This document shows positions 5,060 to 18,942 of a stretch of DNA of 25,958 bases, one piece after another. The position numbers and the translations under genes are program-made. The stretch lies in the IMG/VR virus record IMGVR_UViG_3300008448_000550, positions 1 to 25,958 of that record. The stretch is one strand, 5' to 3'. This DNA is from a virus. The first letter of the stretch is position 1; each line of letters begins with the position of its first letter. Below the pieces are notes generated by a model. That model ran no database searches. It was given only the letters and a program-made list of their open reading frames with translations, and had not been told where the DNA came from.

Positions 5060-7210
5060 ATGGCCGAAACAATTGTTTCACCTGGTGTATTTACTAACGA
5101 AGTAGATCAGTCGTTTTTACCGGCTGGCGTTGCTGCTATCGGAGCTGCTATTATCGGTCCCACACAAAAAGGACCTGCAGGTATTCCGATTCGAGTAACT
5201 AGTTATGCTGACTTTTTACAAAAGTTTGGCGGCGCGTTTACAAGTGGTTCGGGTGCATCAGAAAAATCATACAAATATTTAACTAACTATGCTGTACAGG
5301 AATACTTGAAGTACGCCGACACGATGACAGTAGTTAGAATATTAGCTGGTAATTATAGTCCAGCATCATCTAGTATTAATTCATCGGGTGGCGCAGCTAC
5401 ACGCGCTGCTGCTAGTGTTAACTTATCTGCGTTAGGTACTGCAAGTTACAATTTTGGTAATGGATCTGCAGAAACTAACGGTATACGTATTGAAACAGCT
5501 AATGGAGCACTCATCGGAACGTTTATAAGTAGTTCAATAAGCACGTTTTATGGAGCAGCGAATCAAGGTTTATTTACGGGCGGTATTAGTGGATTAGTTA
5601 ATTTAATTAATAATACAGCTGAATTAAGTGCACAAATATCTGCATCTTTTAGTAGTACTACATTACAAATAACATCATCTGTAGCTGGTACGATTGGTAA
5701 CGGTATTAAAATTTTTACCGGTTCATATTATCAACTTTATAGTGATGTGCCAACCGCAGCAGTATTAGGTGCTACATTGAGTGGCGGTACTGATCAAAGT
5801 GTTGCGGTATTTACATTGACAACACTTAGTGACGGTGCTGATCAGAATAGCGAATCTACAGAAGGTACTAACGGAGTACTTCCATCGGGTAGTATCAATA
5901 ATATACGTTGGGAAGTAACATCACGTAACACTACAAAAGGTACGTTTAACTTGATTATACGTCGTGGTGATGATACTAATAATAGAAAGACAATTGTTGA
6001 ACAGTATAATAATTTAACACTCGATCCTAATTCACCTAACTATATTGCTTCAGTGATTGGTGATCAGTATTATACATTAACTGATTCTGGAACATCGGAT
6101 CCGTTCTTACAACTAACTGGTGATTATCCAAATCGTTCTAAGTATGTACGTGTTACGGTTCATAAGAACACTATCAATTATTTAGATAGTAACGGTAATG
6201 TACGTGATAGTAGCTTATCATACTTAATTCCAGCAGTAAGCTCAGGAAGCTTTGGTGGCGGTAGTAATGGTACTGTTGTACATCCAATATTATTTAACGA
6301 AAGTATTGATAATACAAATACCCAAGGATTTAACTTAGCTTCTGGCCAAGTTGGTAGAACAGCGTATATTGACGCAATCCGTGTATTAAAGAATCAGGAT
6401 GAATATGATATTAACTTGTTAGTTCTTCCTGGCGTTGTTGATAACTTTACGAACCACGCCGCTGTATTAACAGAAGCCGTTAATATGGTCGAAAGTCGTG
6501 GTGATTGTTTCTTAGTTATCGACCCGGTAGAGCATGGAGCATCTATTACAGACGCAACTAGTCAAGCCGGAGATCGTGATAGTAATTATGTTGCTGAATA
6601 TTGGCCATGGGTAAAAGTTCCAGATCCAGATCTAGGACGTAACGTATGGGTTCCTGCAAGTACTTTGATTCCGGGTGTTTATGCATTCTCTGATCGTGTT
6701 GCTGCTCCATGGTATGCACCAGCTGGTTTAAACAGAGGTGGTATTGATATCGCAGTTCAAACCGAACGTAAGTTGACCCAAGCTAATCGTGATACACTTT
6801 ATGAAGCTAGTGTGAATCCAATTGCAACTTTCCCTAACAGTGGTGTAGTTGTATATGGTCAAAAGACACTTCAGAAGAAAGCATCCGCATTGGATCGTGT
6901 TAATGTACGTCGTTTGTTAATCGCAGCTAAGAAATTTATTGCATCAACAACCAAGTTCTTAGTATTTGAAAACAATACGGCAGCGACAAGAAATAGATTC
7001 TTAGCTATTACAAACCCATACTTTGAAAACGTACAACAACGTCAAGGTTTATATGCGTTTAAAGTAGTGATGGATGAAACAAATAATACTGCAGATGTAA
7101 TTGACCGTAATGAAATGCGCGGAGCAATTTATTTACAACCTGCTAAATCTGCTGAATTTATTATTATCGACTTTAATATTCTTCCAACGGGTGCTTCATT
7201 CCCTGAATAA
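5060..7210 (+). CDS. gp18: Tail sheath protein
   Basis: The contractile sheath subunit that forms stacked rings around the tail tube and shortens on injection. It is 716 residues, a little longer than T4 gp18 (659). The N-terminus has the signature SPGVFTNEVD (residues 7-16), followed by IGPTQKGP. The first 420 residues are rich in Ser, Thr, Gly and Asn and hold the variable outward-facing domains. From about 430 the conserved core appears: DEYDINLLVLPGV, then the WPWVKVPDP and VWVPAS segments, and near the end a helix-strand region (TLYEASVNPIATFP...VVVYGQKTLQ) that makes the sheath-to-sheath handshake. AGGAG precedes the ATG. It forms a unit with the tube gene that ends in a strong terminator. 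Confidence 0.96.
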   Translation: MAETIVSPGVFTNEVDQSFLPAGVAAIGAAIIGPTQKGPAGIPIRVTSYADFLQKFGGAFTSGSGASEKSYKYLTNYAVQEYLKYADTMTVVRILAGNYSPASSSINSSGGAATRAAASVNLSALGTASYNFGNGSAETNGIRIETANGALIGTFISSSISTFYGAANQGLFTGGISGLVNLINNTAELSAQISASFSSTTLQITSSVAGTIGNGIKIFTGSYYQLYSDVPTAAVLGATLSGGTDQSVAVFTLTTLSDGADQNSESTEGTNGVLPSGSINNIRWEVTSRNTTKGTFNLIIRRGDDTNNRKTIVEQYNNLTLDPNSPNYIASVIGDQYYTLTDSGTSDPFLQLTGDYPNRSKYVRVTVHKNTINYLDSNGNVRDSSLSYLIPAVSSGSFGGGSNGTVVHPILFNESIDNTNTQGFNLASGQVGRTAYIDAIRVLKNQDEYDINLLVLPGVVDNFTNHAAVLTEAVNMVESRGDCFLVIDPVEHGASITDATSQAGDRDSNYVAEYWPWVKVPDPDLGRNVWVPASTLIPGVYAFSDRVAAPWYAPAGLNRGGIDIAVQTERKLTQANRDTLYEASVNPIATFPNSGVVVYGQKTLQKKASALDRVNVRRLLIAAKKFIASTTKFLVFENNTAATRNRFLAITNPYFENVQQRQGLYAFKVVMDETNNTADVIDRNEMRGAIYLQPAKSAEFIIIDFNILPTGASFPE

Positions 7211-7259: not shown

Positions 7260-7748
7260 ATGGCAGAATTATTATCACCCAATGAAATATTTTATACGGC
7301 TTTCGAACCTAAACTTTCGATGCGCTTTATAATGTATGTAGAGGGTATTCCATCATATTTAATTAAAGCAGCTTCTCGTCCAAGTATTGATCAAGGTGAA
7401 GTAATTCTAGATCATATTAACGTTGAGCGTAAGCTAAAAGGAAAATCACGTTGGCAAGATGTAACAATTACATTGTATGACCCAGTAGTTCCTTCCGGCG
7501 CGCAAGCTGTAATGGAATGGGTTCGTTTACACCACGAATCAGTAACTGGTCGTGATGGTTATAGTGACTTCTATAAAAAGGATATCACTTTTAACAGTTT
7601 AGGTCCAGTAGGTGATAAAGTAGAAGAATGGACATTGAAAGGAGCTTTCATTAGTTCAGCTACTTTTGGAGATATGGATTGGGCAACTGAAGATCCGGTG
7701 AATATTGAATTAACTATTAAATACGATTACGCAATCTTGCAATTCTAA
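7260..7748 (+). CDS. gp19: Tail tube protein
   Basis: The 162-residue length equals that of T4 gp19 (163). The middle motif pattern is typical: FIMYVEGIPSYLIKAASRPS near residues 23-42, KGKSRWQDVTITLYDPV near 59-76, and the end DMDWATEDPVNIELTIKYDYA. This protein stacks in rings to make the rigid inner tube through which DNA leaves. The best ribosome binding site in the window (AAGGAG, nine bases before the ATG) suits a protein made in more than a hundred copies per virion. The sheath gene lies 49 bases upstream and a rho-independent terminator follows 24 bases after the stop. Confidence 0.96.
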   Translation: MAELLSPNEIFYTAFEPKLSMRFIMYVEGIPSYLIKAASRPSIDQGEVILDHINVERKLKGKSRWQDVTITLYDPVVPSGAQAVMEWVRLHHESVTGRDGYSDFYKKDITFNSLGPVGDKVEEWTLKGAFISSATFGDMDWATEDPVNIELTIKYDYAILQF

Positions 7749-7822: not shown

Positions 7823-8083
7823 ATGATAGATCCAATAGAACATTACGGCACAAAGATTAACGAATCTATTTCGGCTGCAATTGGTGCGGCTGTAGGAGCA
7901 GTTGTGTTAGGAATTAAAGTTAAGAACATTATCAAAGATATAATGAAACTCGGAAAAGAAGATTCTGAGTTAAAGTCAGCAGCTATAGATTATGTACATC
8001 AGGCACAACGTCTAAAGGATTTAGCTGATAGTTATTGCGAAAGAAATCCAGATGCCCCTGGGTGTAAAGGGCGAAAGAAATAA
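7823..8083 (+). CDS. Small protein with one possible membrane helix, function unknown
   Basis: An 86-residue protein. Residues 16-33 are a small-residue hydrophobic helix (ISAAIGAAVGAVVLGIKV) with GxxxG-like spacing, which could span or pack against a membrane. The rest is a charged helix, ending in a short tail with two cysteines (Cys72 and Cys80) and basic residues. I recognise no family. It lies between the tail tube and the gp26-like gene, right behind a terminator and a motif box with an unusually short distance to the ATG. Length, reading frame and neighbours support a real gene. It might be a structural minor protein or a membrane-acting protein; neither can be shown. Confidence 0.65.
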   Translation: MIDPIEHYGTKINESISAAIGAAVGAVVLGIKVKNIIKDIMKLGKEDSELKSAAIDYVHQAQRLKDLADSYCERNPDAPGCKGRKK

Positions 8084-8118: not shown

Positions 8119-8982
8119 ATGCCAACGGTTAATGATGAGTACAAAAAGTCTACGGAACAAATGTCTGATGCAACATTAAAAGCACTTGCTATCGAACAAT
8201 ATCAATCACAACAACAAACTTTAGCAAAAAGTACATATACAGGTCCTACGGAAATTGTAGAGTTACCTAGCGAAGGTAAACCATATCCAGCGGGTCATCC
8301 TTTAGCATCGGGTAAGATTGAAATGAAATATATGACTGCTAAAGAAGAAGATATTCTTACTAATCAGAGCTATATTAAGTCTGGTGTTGTATTAGATAAA
8401 TTATTTCAAGCTCTTATCGTAACACCAGTAGATTATAATGATCTTTTGTTAGGTGATAAAAATGCTATAATGGTAGCAGCTCGTGTTTTAGGTTATGGAT
8501 CTAAGTATAAAGCTAAAGTAGCTACACCATCGGGTAATACACAAGAAATTGAAGTTGACTTAACACAACTAGGTAATAAAGAAATTGATTGGTCTTTATT
8601 TACTGAACAAGGCAAGTGTGAATTTGATTTTGAATTGCCAGTAACAAAACGCACTGTAACGGTTAAGCTGTTAACTCAACGTGATAGTAAAAAAATAGAA
8701 GCTGAATTAGCAGGTCTTGCTAAAATTAAACAAGATGCTCAATTAACAACACGTATGAAATATATGATAGTAGCCGTCGACGGTAATCGTGACAGTGTTA
8801 CTACTCGTAAGTTTGTAGATGAAATGTTAGCTATTGAAAGTCGAGCTGTTAGAAACTTCGTAAATACTGTTACGCCTGATATCGAACTTAAAGTAGATTT
8901 GGTCGATGAGGTGACCTCAGAACCCTTTCGCGGTTCATTTACCTTCGGATTGGACGCTTTTTGGCCTGACGCCGGAATATAA
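8119..8982 (+). CDS. T4 gp26-like baseplate protein / probable tail assembly chaperone (short form)
   Basis: A 287-residue protein with the marks of the T4 gp26 (T4_baseplate) family: LPSEGKPYPAGHPLASG near residues 50-66, then MKYMTAKEEDILTNQSYIK, and VDYNDLLLGDKNAIMVAARVLGYG near 105-127. T4 gp26 (208 residues) is a hub assembly factor. Here the gene sits between the tube and tape-measure genes, exactly where simple phages carry a tail assembly chaperone (lambda G, P2 E). A second frame opens across its 3' end and continues to 9172 (separate entry), as in the G/G-T type of gene. AAAGG precedes the ATG. I infer that it coats the tape measure during tail building; the sequence family and its place are seen, the role is not. 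Confidence 0.8.
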   Translation: MPTVNDEYKKSTEQMSDATLKALAIEQYQSQQQTLAKSTYTGPTEIVELPSEGKPYPAGHPLASGKIEMKYMTAKEEDILTNQSYIKSGVVLDKLFQALIVTPVDYNDLLLGDKNAIMVAARVLGYGSKYKAKVATPSGNTQEIEVDLTQLGNKEIDWSLFTEQGKCEFDFELPVTKRTVTVKLLTQRDSKKIEAELAGLAKIKQDAQLTTRMKYMIVAVDGNRDSVTTRKFVDEMLAIESRAVRNFVNTVTPDIELKVDLVDEVTSEPFRGSFTFGLDAFWPDAGI

Positions 8983-9172
8983 GTTAACGATCAATCAAGA
9001 AATCTTCGATCTAGTATTTCACGGCAAGGGTTTTACGTATGAAGACGCGTATAATATGCCGGTTCACCTTAGACACTTCTTTATACGCAAATTACAAAAG
9101 TACTTTGAAGATAAGCGTGTAGCTGAAGAAAAAGCAGCAAAAGAAGCACGTAGTCGTAATCGTAAGAAATAA
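8963..9172 (+). CDS. Frameshift extension of the gp26-like chaperone (gp51-like C-terminal part)
   Basis: Downstream of the gp26-like gene, the +1 frame is open from 8915 (after TGA 8912-8914) to TAA 9170-9172 and reads as well-behaved protein: PEYKLTINQEIFDLVFHGK, then YEDAYNMPVHLRHFFIRKL, then a Lys/Glu/Arg-rich end. There is no ATG, GTG or TTG in this frame before the Met codon at 9056, which would remove the conserved-looking half. A +1 (or -2) shift at the T run 8958-8962 (0-frame GCT TTT TGG) would join Phe281 to 69 further residues and give a 350-residue protein. A CCC-T at 8923-8926 is a second possible site. The reading frame is seen; the shift mechanism is inferred. A sequencing error is possible but would need to produce a sensible stop (TAA 8980) as well. 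Confidence 0.72.
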   Translation, partial: GLTPEYKLTINQEIFDLVFHGKGFTYEDAYNMPVHLRHFFIRKLQKYFEDKRVAEEKAAKEARSRNRKK

Positions 9173-9208: not shown

Positions 9209-9460
9209 ATGTCTTTTAATAAACTAGAATCTCGTTTACTTAAGGAAGGTTCATTTTACGAACGTATGTTCGCAGATATCATACAAGCTTTATTTCGTCC
9301 GGCTGCTCGTAAGTTTTTTAAACAAATAGCTAAAGATATAGATACTGATCCAAAAGTAGCTAGTGATTTCCAATCGTTAATTGATGCTAAAAAGGGTTGG
9401 GAACAATGGAAAAAAACAATGGAAAAAGAGTATCCCAATCTTAAAGGTAAGTTAGACTAA
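9209..9460 (+). CDS. Small helical protein before the tape measure, function unknown
   Basis: An 83-residue, strongly basic and acidic, helix-rich protein without cysteine; its most ordered-looking parts are ERMFADIIQALFRPAARKFF (residues 18-37) and a C-terminal amphipathic helix (64-80). A clear AAAAAGG lies eight bases before the ATG and the tape-measure gene starts one base after its stop, so the two are translated together. I know no family for it. A small partner of the tape measure or chaperone would fit the place, but nothing in the sequence proves it. Confidence 0.65.
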   Translation: MSFNKLESRLLKEGSFYERMFADIIQALFRPAARKFFKQIAKDIDTDPKVASDFQSLIDAKKGWEQWKKTMEKEYPNLKGKLD

Positions 9461-9461
9461 T

Positions 9462-11777
9462 ATGGCTAAAAAACTATCACCTGCTGAAGAACAAGCTAAA
9501 CTATTAAAAGAAGCTCAGTCATTGGGTAGAGCCCTAGGACTGGAGTATGAAAATATAGCAGATCTACAAGACTTGATTTTAAAAAATCAAGTCAAGTCAA
9601 CTGCACAGATAATTAATCAGTTAAAATTAGCTCGTGAAGCACAGGACGATTTAGAAACTGATATTAAATTACAAAAACAGAAAAACAAAACAGAAGAAAT
9701 TGGTTTAGACTTAGCTTCTAAGATGTTACAAACTAAAGAATCGATTGATACTGCACAAAAGTCAATATTTACAAATACAGAAGCTACATATAAAAAGTTA
9801 AAAGAAACTTTATCAACCAGAAAAAAAGAAATTTCTAAATTAGTAGCTATGGGCGATATTAGTAGTAAAGTTGCACAAGATTCGCTTAAACAATTAGAAT
9901 TAGAAGAAGAACGTATTGATTCGTTACAACGTATTCAGGATCAATATCAGTCACAGTTTGATACACTTACATCGATAGGAAACTATCTATCGAAAAACTT
10001 TGGTGCTGTTGGCAGTGTACTACAAAAAAGTATAAATAAAGGTATGTCGACATTTGTCGATGGTATAGCTGAAGGTAAATCTTCGACAGAAGCTATGCAA
10101 GGAGCTATGAAAGCTTTCGGCGGCCAAGCTACTGCCAGTATTACTAAAATGTTAAGTTTAGTTGGTATAGTAACATTGCTATATGATATTTTTGTAGATG
10201 CTAGTAATCAAGCTAAAGAATTAGCATTAAATACTGGAATTACGTTTTCTCAAGCTAGAAAATTAACAGATGAAGCACGTAATGCAGCTTCATCATATGG
10301 TATACAATTAGCTACTAGTAAAGAAATTTTAGAAGTACAACAAGCCACTATATCAGAGTTTGGTACCATGGCTATGATGTCAACTGATATTGCAGCACAG
10401 GTTGCTGAGACAGGAAAGGCTTTTGGATATGGAGCGCAACAAGCAGCTTTAGTTAACAATCAGTTTATGTCAATGGGCGCTAGTAGTGAAGACGCAGCTA
10501 ATATGCAGCGTGAATTAGCTGCAGAAGCTCTTAAAGCCGGTGTTAATGTTGGTACTGTAATGAAAGACATTACAGCTAATGCTAAACAAGCTAGTAAATA
10601 CTTTGGCGGTAATATTAAAGCCTTACGAGATGCTGCTGTTCAAGCTGCTAAGTTAGGTATATCTTTAAAGGATATGACTAGTATATCTGATAAATTGCTA
10701 GATATAGAATCGAGCCTACAGAGTCAGTTTGAATTACAAGCTATGACTGGTAAGCAGATTAATTTAGATAAAGCACGTGAGTTAGCATTAGAAGGAAAAA
10801 TATCAGAAGCATCGAAAGCTGTATATGAGCAAATCGGCGGTATTGCTGAATTTGAAAAAATGCGTCCGTTGGAACGTAAAAAGTTAGCTGAAATGATGGG
10901 CATGGAAGTTGATGAGTTGGGAAAATCATTAGCTATACAAGAAAAATTAGGTGACTTAACTGCGGAACAACAGGCAGCTGCTATGAATTTAGGTTTGAGT
11001 GCTGCTGAAATAGCAAATATGGATGCTGATCAACTAGAAAGTAAATTAGCACAACAACAAAGTTTGGAAAAAACAAATCAAGCTTTATCAGCTGCAAAAG
11101 ATCAAATAGCTAGCGGGTTATTACCAATAGCACAAGCATTTGCAGATGTATTAGCATCTATAGCTCCAGTACTTAAGTTTTTAGGAGATTTGGTTTGGGT
11201 TATAACATGGCCATTTGTAAAGTTAGTTGAACTAGCAAAAACATTTGGAGACTATTTATCATCATTTTTACCTAAATGGGAAGAAATGGGAGCTGTAGGT
11301 AAAACTATAGTTGGTATTCTTAAAGCATTAGCAATCGGTGCTATAATATGGGGTTCATGGTCAGCCTTTGGCGGTATTCCATTTATTGGTCCGGCGTTAG
11401 CTATCGGTACCGCAGCTGCTGGTATATCATTGGTAAATAGTATAGTAAAAACCGGTGACTTAGCAATGGGTGCAAATGGCGGTCCAATTGTTACGAACCC
11501 TAGAGAAGGAACAATATTCCAAGGTACTAAAAATGATGAAGTAGCTATGGGCCCTGGTGTTATTGAAGCTGCACAATCCGGTGGTGGTACGACAGTAGTA
11601 CAACAATCAGGCGGAACAGATACAGCATTAATAACAGCTTTAATGGCAAAAATGGATGCAATTGCAGCTGCGTTAGCAACACCAGTACCAGTACAAATCG
11701 GCGATCGTGTGATTACAGAAATAGGTACGCAATTAGCAGTAAATAAAACATATAGAACAGGTGTAGGAGGTAGATAA
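9462..11777 (+). CDS. Tape measure protein
   Basis: A 771-residue protein that sets tail length and is ejected before the DNA. Residues 1-160 are a long charged coiled coil rich in Lys, Glu, Gln and Leu. A hydrophobic helix near 225-246 is followed by an alanine-rich, methionine-rich helical middle (about 250-545), then a hydrophobic region of several helices (about 550-665) and a glycine-rich stretch before a short end. The layout and its place behind the chaperone gene match phage tape measures. With roughly 1.5 angstrom per residue the tail would be near 115 nm (inference). T4 gp29 is shorter (590). The start overlaps no other gene but the stop shares a base with the next ATG (TAATG at 11775-11779). 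Confidence 0.85.
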   Translation: MAKKLSPAEEQAKLLKEAQSLGRALGLEYENIADLQDLILKNQVKSTAQIINQLKLAREAQDDLETDIKLQKQKNKTEEIGLDLASKMLQTKESIDTAQKSIFTNTEATYKKLKETLSTRKKEISKLVAMGDISSKVAQDSLKQLELEEERIDSLQRIQDQYQSQFDTLTSIGNYLSKNFGAVGSVLQKSINKGMSTFVDGIAEGKSSTEAMQGAMKAFGGQATASITKMLSLVGIVTLLYDIFVDASNQAKELALNTGITFSQARKLTDEARNAASSYGIQLATSKEILEVQQATISEFGTMAMMSTDIAAQVAETGKAFGYGAQQAALVNNQFMSMGASSEDAANMQRELAAEALKAGVNVGTVMKDITANAKQASKYFGGNIKALRDAAVQAAKLGISLKDMTSISDKLLDIESSLQSQFELQAMTGKQINLDKARELALEGKISEASKAVYEQIGGIAEFEKMRPLERKKLAEMMGMEVDELGKSLAIQEKLGDLTAEQQAAAMNLGLSAAEIANMDADQLESKLAQQQSLEKTNQALSAAKDQIASGLLPIAQAFADVLASIAPVLKFLGDLVWVITWPFVKLVELAKTFGDYLSSFLPKWEEMGAVGKTIVGILKALAIGAIIWGSWSAFGGIPFIGPALAIGTAAAGISLVNSIVKTGDLAMGANGGPIVTNPREGTIFQGTKNDEVAMGPGVIEAAQSGGGTTVVQQSGGTDTALITALMAKMDAIAAALATPVPVQIGDRVITEIGTQLAVNKTYRTGVGGR

Positions 11778-17022: not shown

Positions 17023-17028
17023 TAAGTG

Positions 17029-18369
17029 ATGTTTATTGAATCAGATCAAGATTTGCGGTATGTACGAGATGCATTACAGAGTGGTCCTAGTTTCTGGATT
17101 CCTGTTATTTCTGACCCATTTAAGCATTATACTCAGAATACCATAAGCTTTGTATACATATATAGTATTACAGAAGACACGGATTACATCATTCCGATAC
17201 GTCATATTGATTGTATAAACATTAATATAGAACGTTTAAAGGAGTTGAGTAGTCCACATAGTATCTTTGTATTATCTAAGAAACGATTTCAAAATACATA
17301 TGTCAAACCGTGTTATGACGCCGACCTTTTTGCTTGGTGGCATACCGGTCGTATGTTGCAATTAGATGAAACAAATACACCGGCACATGATATGTGGGGG
17401 AAGTGGTGGTACAATGAAACTAACACAAACGATTGGTTGCCAATAACACGTCATTTGGAACGTTGTCGTGCAATGCGTGATGTATTTATGTACATGTATA
17501 ACAAGTATCCCGTTACCGAAGAGTTTCAAAACTATGAACGTCATATGTTAGACAATTGTCATGCTATTGAAACTAACGGATTGCGTGTTGATGACGTTGT
17601 ATTACAAGAGCATTTCAATCAGCAATCTTCTCGAGGATTTCTGTATACAGAGTATAATCCATATACTAGTACCGGACGTCCTAGTAATAAATTCGGTGGT
17701 ATAAACTTTGCTGCATTGAATAAAGATGACGGCGGCCGTGCTATGATTACAAGTCGATTTAATCGCGGTATGCTAATCGAATGTGACTTCGATGCGTTCC
17801 ATATACGTCTTATTGCTAATTTGATAGGATATACGTTACCAGATGAATCTGTACATACATATTTCGGCCGTCAATACTTTGGTAAGACAGAGTTAACGGA
17901 TGCTGAATACGAACAAAGCAAACAAATGACGTTCCATTTATTATATGGTGGTATTGATGCTGAGTTCGAAAAGATTCCATTCTTTGGTAAGACTAAACGT
18001 TATATTGCAGATTTATGGCGACAATTTCGTAAGGATGGATTTATATTGACTCCTGTATTCAAACGACCAATAACGCGCGATATGATTACGGATCCAAATG
18101 CCGGTAAACTGTTTAACTATCTGTTACAATCATATGAGACGGAACATAACATGGGTGTTATCAATGAAGTAAATACATTGTTAACGGGATATAATAGTAA
18201 GTTGATTCTTTATACATATGACTCATTTCTTATTGATTTTGATATTACAGACGGCAAGCAGTTAATAACAGAAATCAAACATACTATATCTGCAGGTAAT
18301 TTTCCGGTAAAAATAAAGGCTGGCGTCAATTATCATAAAATGCAAGATATGACTAACAGAGTTTCCTAG
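17029..18369 (+). CDS. Reduced family A DNA polymerase, thumb missing and exonuclease degenerate
   Basis: A 446-residue protein using the ATG at 17029; a GTG at 17026 is in frame but overlaps the predicted mRNA start. Polymerase signatures: GRPSN at 216-220; motif A ECDFDAFHIR with Asp253 (E. coli Pol I D705); O-helix KQMTFHLLYG with Lys298, Phe302 and Tyr306 (K758, F762, Y766); motif C YTYDSF with Asp398 (D882). Altered positions: His258 for E710, Tyr294 for R754, Tyr397 and Ser399 for H881 and E883. From NGLRVD to GRPS there are about 28 residues; Pol I has roughly 120, so the thumb is gone. The first 180 residues resemble a proofreading domain with its acidic residues lost. Role inferred: phage genome replication, or a repair or gap-filling enzyme. 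Confidence 0.85.
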   Translation: MFIESDQDLRYVRDALQSGPSFWIPVISDPFKHYTQNTISFVYIYSITEDTDYIIPIRHIDCININIERLKELSSPHSIFVLSKKRFQNTYVKPCYDADLFAWWHTGRMLQLDETNTPAHDMWGKWWYNETNTNDWLPITRHLERCRAMRDVFMYMYNKYPVTEEFQNYERHMLDNCHAIETNGLRVDDVVLQEHFNQQSSRGFLYTEYNPYTSTGRPSNKFGGINFAALNKDDGGRAMITSRFNRGMLIECDFDAFHIRLIANLIGYTLPDESVHTYFGRQYFGKTELTDAEYEQSKQMTFHLLYGGIDAEFEKIPFFGKTKRYIADLWRQFRKDGFILTPVFKRPITRDMITDPNAGKLFNYLLQSYETEHNMGVINEVNTLLTGYNSKLILYTYDSFLIDFDITDGKQLITEIKHTISAGNFPVKIKAGVNYHKMQDMTNRVS

Positions 18370-18393: not shown

Positions 18394-18942
18394 ATGGCAG
18401 AATTACCAAAAGCTACGGTGCAAACAGTTATATCATCACAAGATAGTGTTATGCTACCAAGAACACTTACGCCGGAAATCGTTGACATATTAAACTCAGC
18501 AATTGCTGAAGAATATACAGCTCATTACTTTTATAGAGGAGCTGCTAACTGGTGTCAAGGTGTCGGCTATACAAAAGCAGCTGAGTTCTATACAAAAGAA
18601 GCAGCAGCTGAGTTAGAACATGCTGAAAAATTACAGAAATATATAGTCGATTGGAATGCAACTCCGTTATTACCAGCTATAAAGTTTAACGGCAACTTTG
18701 CACATTTAATTGACGTTGTTAACAAATCATATGCTATTGAATATCAATTAGGTGATAAGTATATGGCTTGGACACGACAAATGTTTGATACGCATTTAAT
18801 GACATTTAATTTCTTGCAAGGGTTTGTAGATTTACAAAACGATTCAATAGCCGAAATGTCTGACCTGTTAAATGCAGCACAACTAGTTGATGTTTCAAAT
18901 AAATTAGATCTATTACACTATGAAGAAAGATACTTTGGTTAA
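18394..18942 (+). CDS. Ferritin (non-heme type), phage-encoded
   Basis: A 182-residue, four-helix ferritin with about 23 extra residues at the N-terminus compared with E. coli FtnA (165). Against FtnA as I recall it, LNSAIAEEYTAHYFY matches helix A with Glu40 for E17; AAAELEHAEKL gives Glu73 and His76 for E50 and H53; YAIEYQ gives Glu116 for E94; FNFLQGFVDLQ gives Gln148 for Q127. So the core ferroxidase ligands are present. FtnA Glu130 aligns with Ser151, and the third iron site (E49, E126, E129) is not kept; the site resembles animal H-ferritin more. The heme Met of bacterioferritin is absent (Leu74). It should oxidise ferrous iron and store it in a 24-subunit cage. Its 3' end overlaps the next gene by 23 bases. 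Confidence 0.9.
   Translation: MAELPKATVQTVISSQDSVMLPRTLTPEIVDILNSAIAEEYTAHYFYRGAANWCQGVGYTKAAEFYTKEAAAELEHAEKLQKYIVDWNATPLLPAIKFNGNFAHLIDVVNKSYAIEYQLGDKYMAWTRQMFDTHLMTFNFLQGFVDLQNDSIAEMSDLLNAAQLVDVSNKLDLLHYEERYFG

Follow-up and report, generated by a model that had tools for sequence, protein, structure and literature searches.

A probable tail assembly chaperone gene with a predicted +1 frameshift in relatives of phage T4

In phages lambda and P2, the tail assembly chaperone genes G/G-T and E/E' lie between the tube and tape measure genes, and each pair yields a short form and a rare long form by a -1 shift where two reading frames overlap near the end of the small gene. A 2016 review excepted T4 from this conserved G-T frameshifting (PMC5009743). 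In T4 the two forms are made from two separate genes on opposite strands, which encode gp26 and gp51. As cited in later papers, Vladimirov, Gautam and Davidson (Virology 2022, 566:9-15) identified T4-like gp26/gp51 as chaperones (PMC10885494, PMC12846349). The two citing accounts differ: one gives separate short and long chaperone genes for some T4-like phages (PMC10885494), and the other gives -1 poly-T signals (PMC12846349). The tail chaperone gene of the haloarchaeal myovirus HSTV-2 is reported as very likely +1 frameshifted (PMC5009743).

We analyzed a locus in the virus record IMGVR_UViG_3300008448_000550, whose 25,958 bases (positions 1 to 25,958) are called the window below. The locus very probably encodes a tail assembly chaperone in short and long forms, with the long form made by a +1 shift. 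It is likened to lambda G/G-T and P2 E/E' by gene layout rather than by sequence homology, and it differs from both in the direction of the shift. A first-pass annotation had proposed the likeness to G/G-T, which is upheld by a startless, overlapping second frame and a conserved junction site, with the tape measure assignment weak. HSTV-2 resembles the locus, by description, in having a probable +1 tail chaperone, but it is an archaeal virus.

Two overlapping frames in the window

The tail genes of the window are of T4 type and are arranged in the order sheath, tube, 86-aa ORF, gp26-like gene, 83-aa ORF, and probable tape measure gene (Table 1). Genes for UvsX, a single-strand binding protein, and a replicative helicase are located further along. 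The tube gene is indeed upstream, as expected from the position previously claimed for the chaperone gene between tube and tape measure, but an ORF intervenes before the likely tape measure gene. Three other features deserve mention. A ferritin-like protein (18394-18942; Pfam PF00210, E=7e-20) is encoded between the tail and replication genes. A 447-aa ORF that adjoins the baseplate genes (17026-18369) has a weak match to family A DNA polymerases (E=0.002, below the cut-off). Finally, a probable tail fibre or adhesin (2-1897) has a glycine-rich, repeat-like C-terminal region (GGAGG...) and no Pfam match.

Table 1. The putative chaperone gene and its neighbors, in window coordinates
Feature	Coordinates	Strand	Evidence
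Sheath	5060-7210		
Tail tube protein (gp19-like), upstream neighbor	7260-7748	+	PHROG 4542, E=7e-25
86-aa ORF on the upstream side of the chaperone gene	7823-8083		No significant family match
Putative tail assembly chaperone (gp26-like), short form, 0 frame, 287 aa, C-terminus FWPDAGI*	8119-8982	+	PHROG 150, E=9e-9; model pLDDT 87
Predicted slip site TTT_T	8959-8962	+	UUU_Y in 126/126 non-redundant +1 relatives; TTT in 81/81 closest loci
TGGCCT, frame-0 W-P; part of G-L once the predicted shift has occurred	8962-8967	+	Invariant in 81/81 first-set loci
+1-frame C-terminal domain, 69 aa, GLTPEYK...RNRKK*, in the predicted long form (350 aa) only	8963-9172	+	Homologues in +1 in 240 loci
83-aa ORF after the end of the +1 frame, before the likely tape measure gene	9209-9460		No significant family match
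Probable tape measure protein, 771 aa, downstream neighbor	9462-11777	+	Weak PHROG 2854 match (E=0.005), size, position

The coordinates first proposed for the overlap were all confirmed. A frame beginning at 8915 runs through 85 open codons to its stop, the TAA at 9170-9172, and lacks ATG, GTG, or TTG before 9056, and the 0-frame gp26-like gene stops within this span, at the TAA at 8980-8982. A run of five T nucleotides (8958-8962) is read in frame 0 as part of GCT TTT TGG CCT. Joined translation reproduces the proposed 350-residue form beside the 287-residue form, wherein a one-base slip from TTT to TTT within 8959-8962 connects 281 residues to 69. The +1 frame is meaningful across 8963-9172 only, since nucleotides 8915-8962 are read in frame 0.

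The downstream frame is more than a chance opening, and the chief evidence for this is the homologous C-terminal domain in the +1 frame of related loci, described below. An open frame of 69 codons survives in 0.26% of dinucleotide shuffles. The window and its closest relative (L001) differ at 3, 2, and 19 sites in the first, second, and third positions of +1-frame codons, and 403 close pairs, which are not independent of one another, give 3600, 1565, and 8203 differences. Judged by these substitution patterns, the downstream +1 frame is under purifying selection.

Sequence comparisons show the gene architecture, the homology, and selection that acts on the slip codons as well as on each of the two frames. 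From these we infer a ribosomal shift, its +1 rather than -2 direction, the relative amounts of the two products, and the function as a chaperone. Most ribosomes would produce the short form (TAC-N, gp26-like). A minority would reach the TTT codon while the slow TGG codon waits, and the P-site tRNA-Phe would then move from 8959-8961 to 8960-8962, making GGC (8963-8965) the next codon. If the parallel with lambda G/G-T holds, the tape measure protein would be coated by the N part, and tube subunits would be recruited by the C part.

The junction in related loci

A scan of IMG/VR recovered 80 relatives of the window gene with 46-93% identity, and further scans brought the total to 330 loci. In the first set, the homologous downstream domain is in the +1 frame in every relative whose sequence reaches far enough. 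The frame of the domain was assigned with an HMM of the C domain; openness is ambiguous in about ten loci, where both frames are open. Outside the cyanophage group, this approach places 240 loci in +1 and 4 in -1, with 2 loci giving no match and 2 being too short. RM378 and L201 have no HMM match, and the +1 call for RM378 comes from the open frame only. The only exceptions to +1 among all loci are the 4-locus sublineage and the cyanophage-like group, both of which are -1; in the latter group, 45 of 81 loci lack an HMM match and are labeled -1 from the open frame. No in-frame fusion of the N part and C domain was seen among the loci scored. Removal of redundancy left 126 +1 loci (122 complete) and 35 S-PM2-like loci. 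All loci share phylogenetic descent, and so counts given here are not independent trials. Scans with other seeds added little: LR756508 gave no matches, SP-15 and RM378 returned only those phages, and GXN1 led to one distant locus.

The sequence of the junction is unusually constant. The codon preceding the P-site TTT is also TTT in 78 of the 81 first-set loci, the exceptions being GCT in the window and L001 and CTT in L008. Among 72 conserved degenerate codon columns, a single codon is used in 100% of cases only at both TTT codons and the CCT codon of TTT TTT TGG CCT, and the other Phe codons of the gene are 82% TTT. The constancy of CCT can be attributed to dual coding, because it contributes to W-P in frame 0 and to G-L in +1. 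Both TTT codons precede the shift, so the +1 protein offers no explanation for why they are constant. The junctions of the 126 non-redundant loci include TTT TTT TGG (99 loci), TTT CTT TGG (18 loci, called immuto-type), and single variants for the remainder. With GCT TTT TGG and its single slip codon, the window is a minor exception. The proposal of a programmed +1 shift therefore draws support from the frame relation in 240 loci, the invariant slip codons, and selection on the +1 frame.

UUU_Ynn sites are reported to be especially prone to +1 shifting in bacteria (PMC5009743). However, UUU_U is less shifty than CUU_U in E. coli (work cited in PMC5009743), which counts against a +1 shift at this site. 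The prfB (RF2) CUU_U site and UUU_Ynn sites are alike in that the P-site tRNA slips one base onto UUU, and the immuto-type site contains CUU_U. Sites of the prfB type have a stop codon in the A site and an SD-like stimulator, whereas the window has TGG and no upstream SD-like stimulator, and so its site falls outside that class. Across the +1 loci, we looked for a stimulator in the form of downstream RNA structure or an upstream SD-like motif and found none: the z value for predicted structure is weak, at -0.8 +/- 1.2, and only 22 of 126 loci have an SD-like motif. A downstream RNA stimulator was rejected on the basis of this z value.

A -2 ribosomal shift, for which a precedent has been proposed in phage Mu, would reach the same frame as +1. 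In 99 of 122 loci, another TTT stands two bases upstream, and tRNA-Phe could pair again there. In the window, however, tRNA-Phe would land on CTT, and in GXN1 on TCT, while at immuto-type TTT CTT TGG sites tRNA-Leu would land on TTC. In addition, every locus retains the UUU_Y needed for +1 slipping. These mismatches make a -2 shift improbable. The two directions predict different junction peptides for the window, namely GSFTFGLDAFGLTPEYK by +1, with one Phe fewer than GSFTFGLDAFFGLTPEYK by -2.

Three further explanations were rejected. Transcriptional slippage on the T run could produce mixed mRNAs, and many relatives have seven consecutive T nucleotides. The run in the window is only five, and no more than three are found in immuto-type junctions (TTTCTTTGG) and LR756508 (TTTCTATTC), which nevertheless keep the frame relation, so we consider slippage very unlikely.

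An equally poor prospect is that the +1 ORF constitutes a small gene in its own right, with its own start or with re-initiation after the 0-frame stop. It is annotated in this manner in SP-15 (ORF 46) and immuto (ORF 232), and 24 of the 122 complete non-redundant loci have an ATG within the first 22 post-shift codons. However, 77 of the 122 have no start codon in this region, 4 have none across the whole ORF, and start positions are not conserved. Moreover, a separate gene would have no need for nucleotide-level constraint on the slip codons. Alignment of homologous loci, the check suggested at the outset, reveals that the frames overlap and the slippery site is kept, with no relative carrying a consistent standalone start. 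An error of sequencing or assembly, or a pseudogene in decay, is conceivable for one metagenomic contig but has a negligible chance of being correct. The +1 frame is under purifying selection, and 240 loci share the arrangement, as do six named phage records (cultured or assembled), which excludes a missing or extra base.

Direction of the shift

PHROG 150 was searched in 13 isolate and reference records, of which CP81 received no direction call. The arrangement is +1 in Microcystis phage Mel-JY01, immuto, SP-15, GXN1, LR756508, and RM378, and it is -1 in S-PM2, HTVC008M, phiM12, KVP40, and probably AG3; T4 has two genes for the two forms. The suggestion that frameshifted chaperones are not standard in T4-like phages must therefore be tempered, since the C-terminal part is in the -1 frame in the latter five (probably so in AG3). 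The cyanophage S-PM2, the pelagiphage HTVC008M, phiM12, and KVP40 share with the window group the gene family, a homologous Phe-Phe shift position, and a homologous C domain. They differ in that their apparent -1 shift is on T_TTT_TTC/T, whereas the +1 group has UUU_Y and avoids a preceding T.

The S-PM2-like junction is T_TTT_TTC in the 35 non-redundant loci (33 as scored, with the other two, GCT TTT TTC, also containing the heptamer). The heptamer T_TTT_TTN is present in 1 of the 126 +1 loci, which places the +1 site outside the -1 X_XXY_YYZ class. Likewise, the two-codon site follows a T in 1 of 126 loci of the +1 group, versus 26% for other Phe codons of the same genes. When the preceding codon specifies N, D, or S (AGY), 57 examples in the +1 group end in C and 1 in T, although these codons elsewhere in the same genes have T in 72-79% of cases. 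In the -1 group, the corresponding numbers are 0 ending in C and 16 ending in T. Because the preceding base is the frame-0 wobble position and is outside the +1 reading, coding does not explain the bias. Rather, it is explained by avoidance of the -1 heptamer U_UUU_UUN.

The four-locus sublineage (L332, L345, L346, and L349; three non-redundant) has TTC TTC TGG CCT TCC CGG TAG without UUU and carries its domain in -1. This junction shows no good -1 heptamer, and the only candidate shift site there is T_TTC. A tree built from 55 N parts nests the sublineage within the +1 group with good support. The starred branches force at least two changes in direction, in a tree whose bootstrap had not settled and in which the sister of the TTC TTC sublineage is unsure. 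We slightly favor a model with two or more switches of direction between +1 and -1, in which the preceding base sets the direction: T, which completes the -1 heptamer, is required in -1 and purged in +1, and the sublineage lacking UUU has gone back to -1.

Relation to gp26 and gp51

Both T4 proteins match PHROG 150, gp26 at positions 14-235 and gp51 at positions 13-280, and by this coverage gp51 consists of gp26 plus a C-terminal part. Fused products of four relatives (L018, L059, L061, and L069) match the same profile across the junction to positions 264-278, as gp51 does. For example, residues 33-328 of the L018 product align with profile positions 11-278. Because all of these proteins fall on one profile, the short form corresponds to gp26 and the long form to gp51, with the shift placed where gp26 ends. 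Thus, the window locus is like T4 in gene family, in a long form with one extra C-terminal domain, and in a short form that ends at the shift point, but it uses one gene and a predicted +1 shift where T4 uses two genes. The profile is the better test, as hhalign of small alignments against gp51 and gp26 alignments gave weak scores only.

The N and C parts were folded separately for structure models. BFVD matches of the N model (pLDDT 87) are T4-like hub assembly proteins and SP-15, and among PDB entries the HK97 tail assembly chaperone 2ob9 ranks second with a weak match (E=1.0, prob 0.57). The C domain model is all-helical (pLDDT 89), and its BFVD matches, none of them significant, include P-HM1 Gp51 and the Moogle tape measure chaperone. 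The N part is single-copy in each of 12 large relative contigs of up to 197 kb, which offers no evidence for a separate gp51-like gene, though most contigs are fragmentary. The first-pass view of gp26/gp51 as the T4-like counterparts of the chaperone pair holds up through the shared PHROG 150 match and the fused relatives that span the junction, but it is not new, having been published by Vladimirov et al. in 2022, as cited in the papers above.

In contrast, the +1 direction looks new for this chaperone family. In the literature searched, where Vladimirov et al. is known via citations, no paper describes +1 shifting in the gp26/gp51 family or a switch in direction. RM378 is a cultured member of the Far-T4 phages (PMC4360716) and carries TTT TTT TGG with an open +1 frame, as in the +1 group. 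Together with the aquatic metagenomic relatives, this suggests that the +1 group overlaps the Far-T4 phages; the gene for the major capsid protein (g23), by which such phages are placed, is outside the window.

With this locus, the range of frameshifted tail chaperones would come to include a large branch of T4 relatives that is mostly uncultivated. The +1 mode has been missed by general annotation, in which the second part is a separate hypothetical ORF in Mel-JY01, immuto, and SP-15. Specifically, Bacillus phage SP-15 ORF 46 (L083, 6809-6928) and Flavobacterium phage immuto ORF 232 (L082, 6833-6943) are annotated as small hypothetical proteins, but each is the terminal part of the upstream hub gene's +1 frame. 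Because the site is short, has no evident stimulator, and occurs in natural variants (UUU_U, UUU_C, UUU_CUU_U, and loss of UUU), the family amounts to a natural experiment on the factors that make bacterial ribosomes slip forward rather than backward, or the reverse, on U runs.
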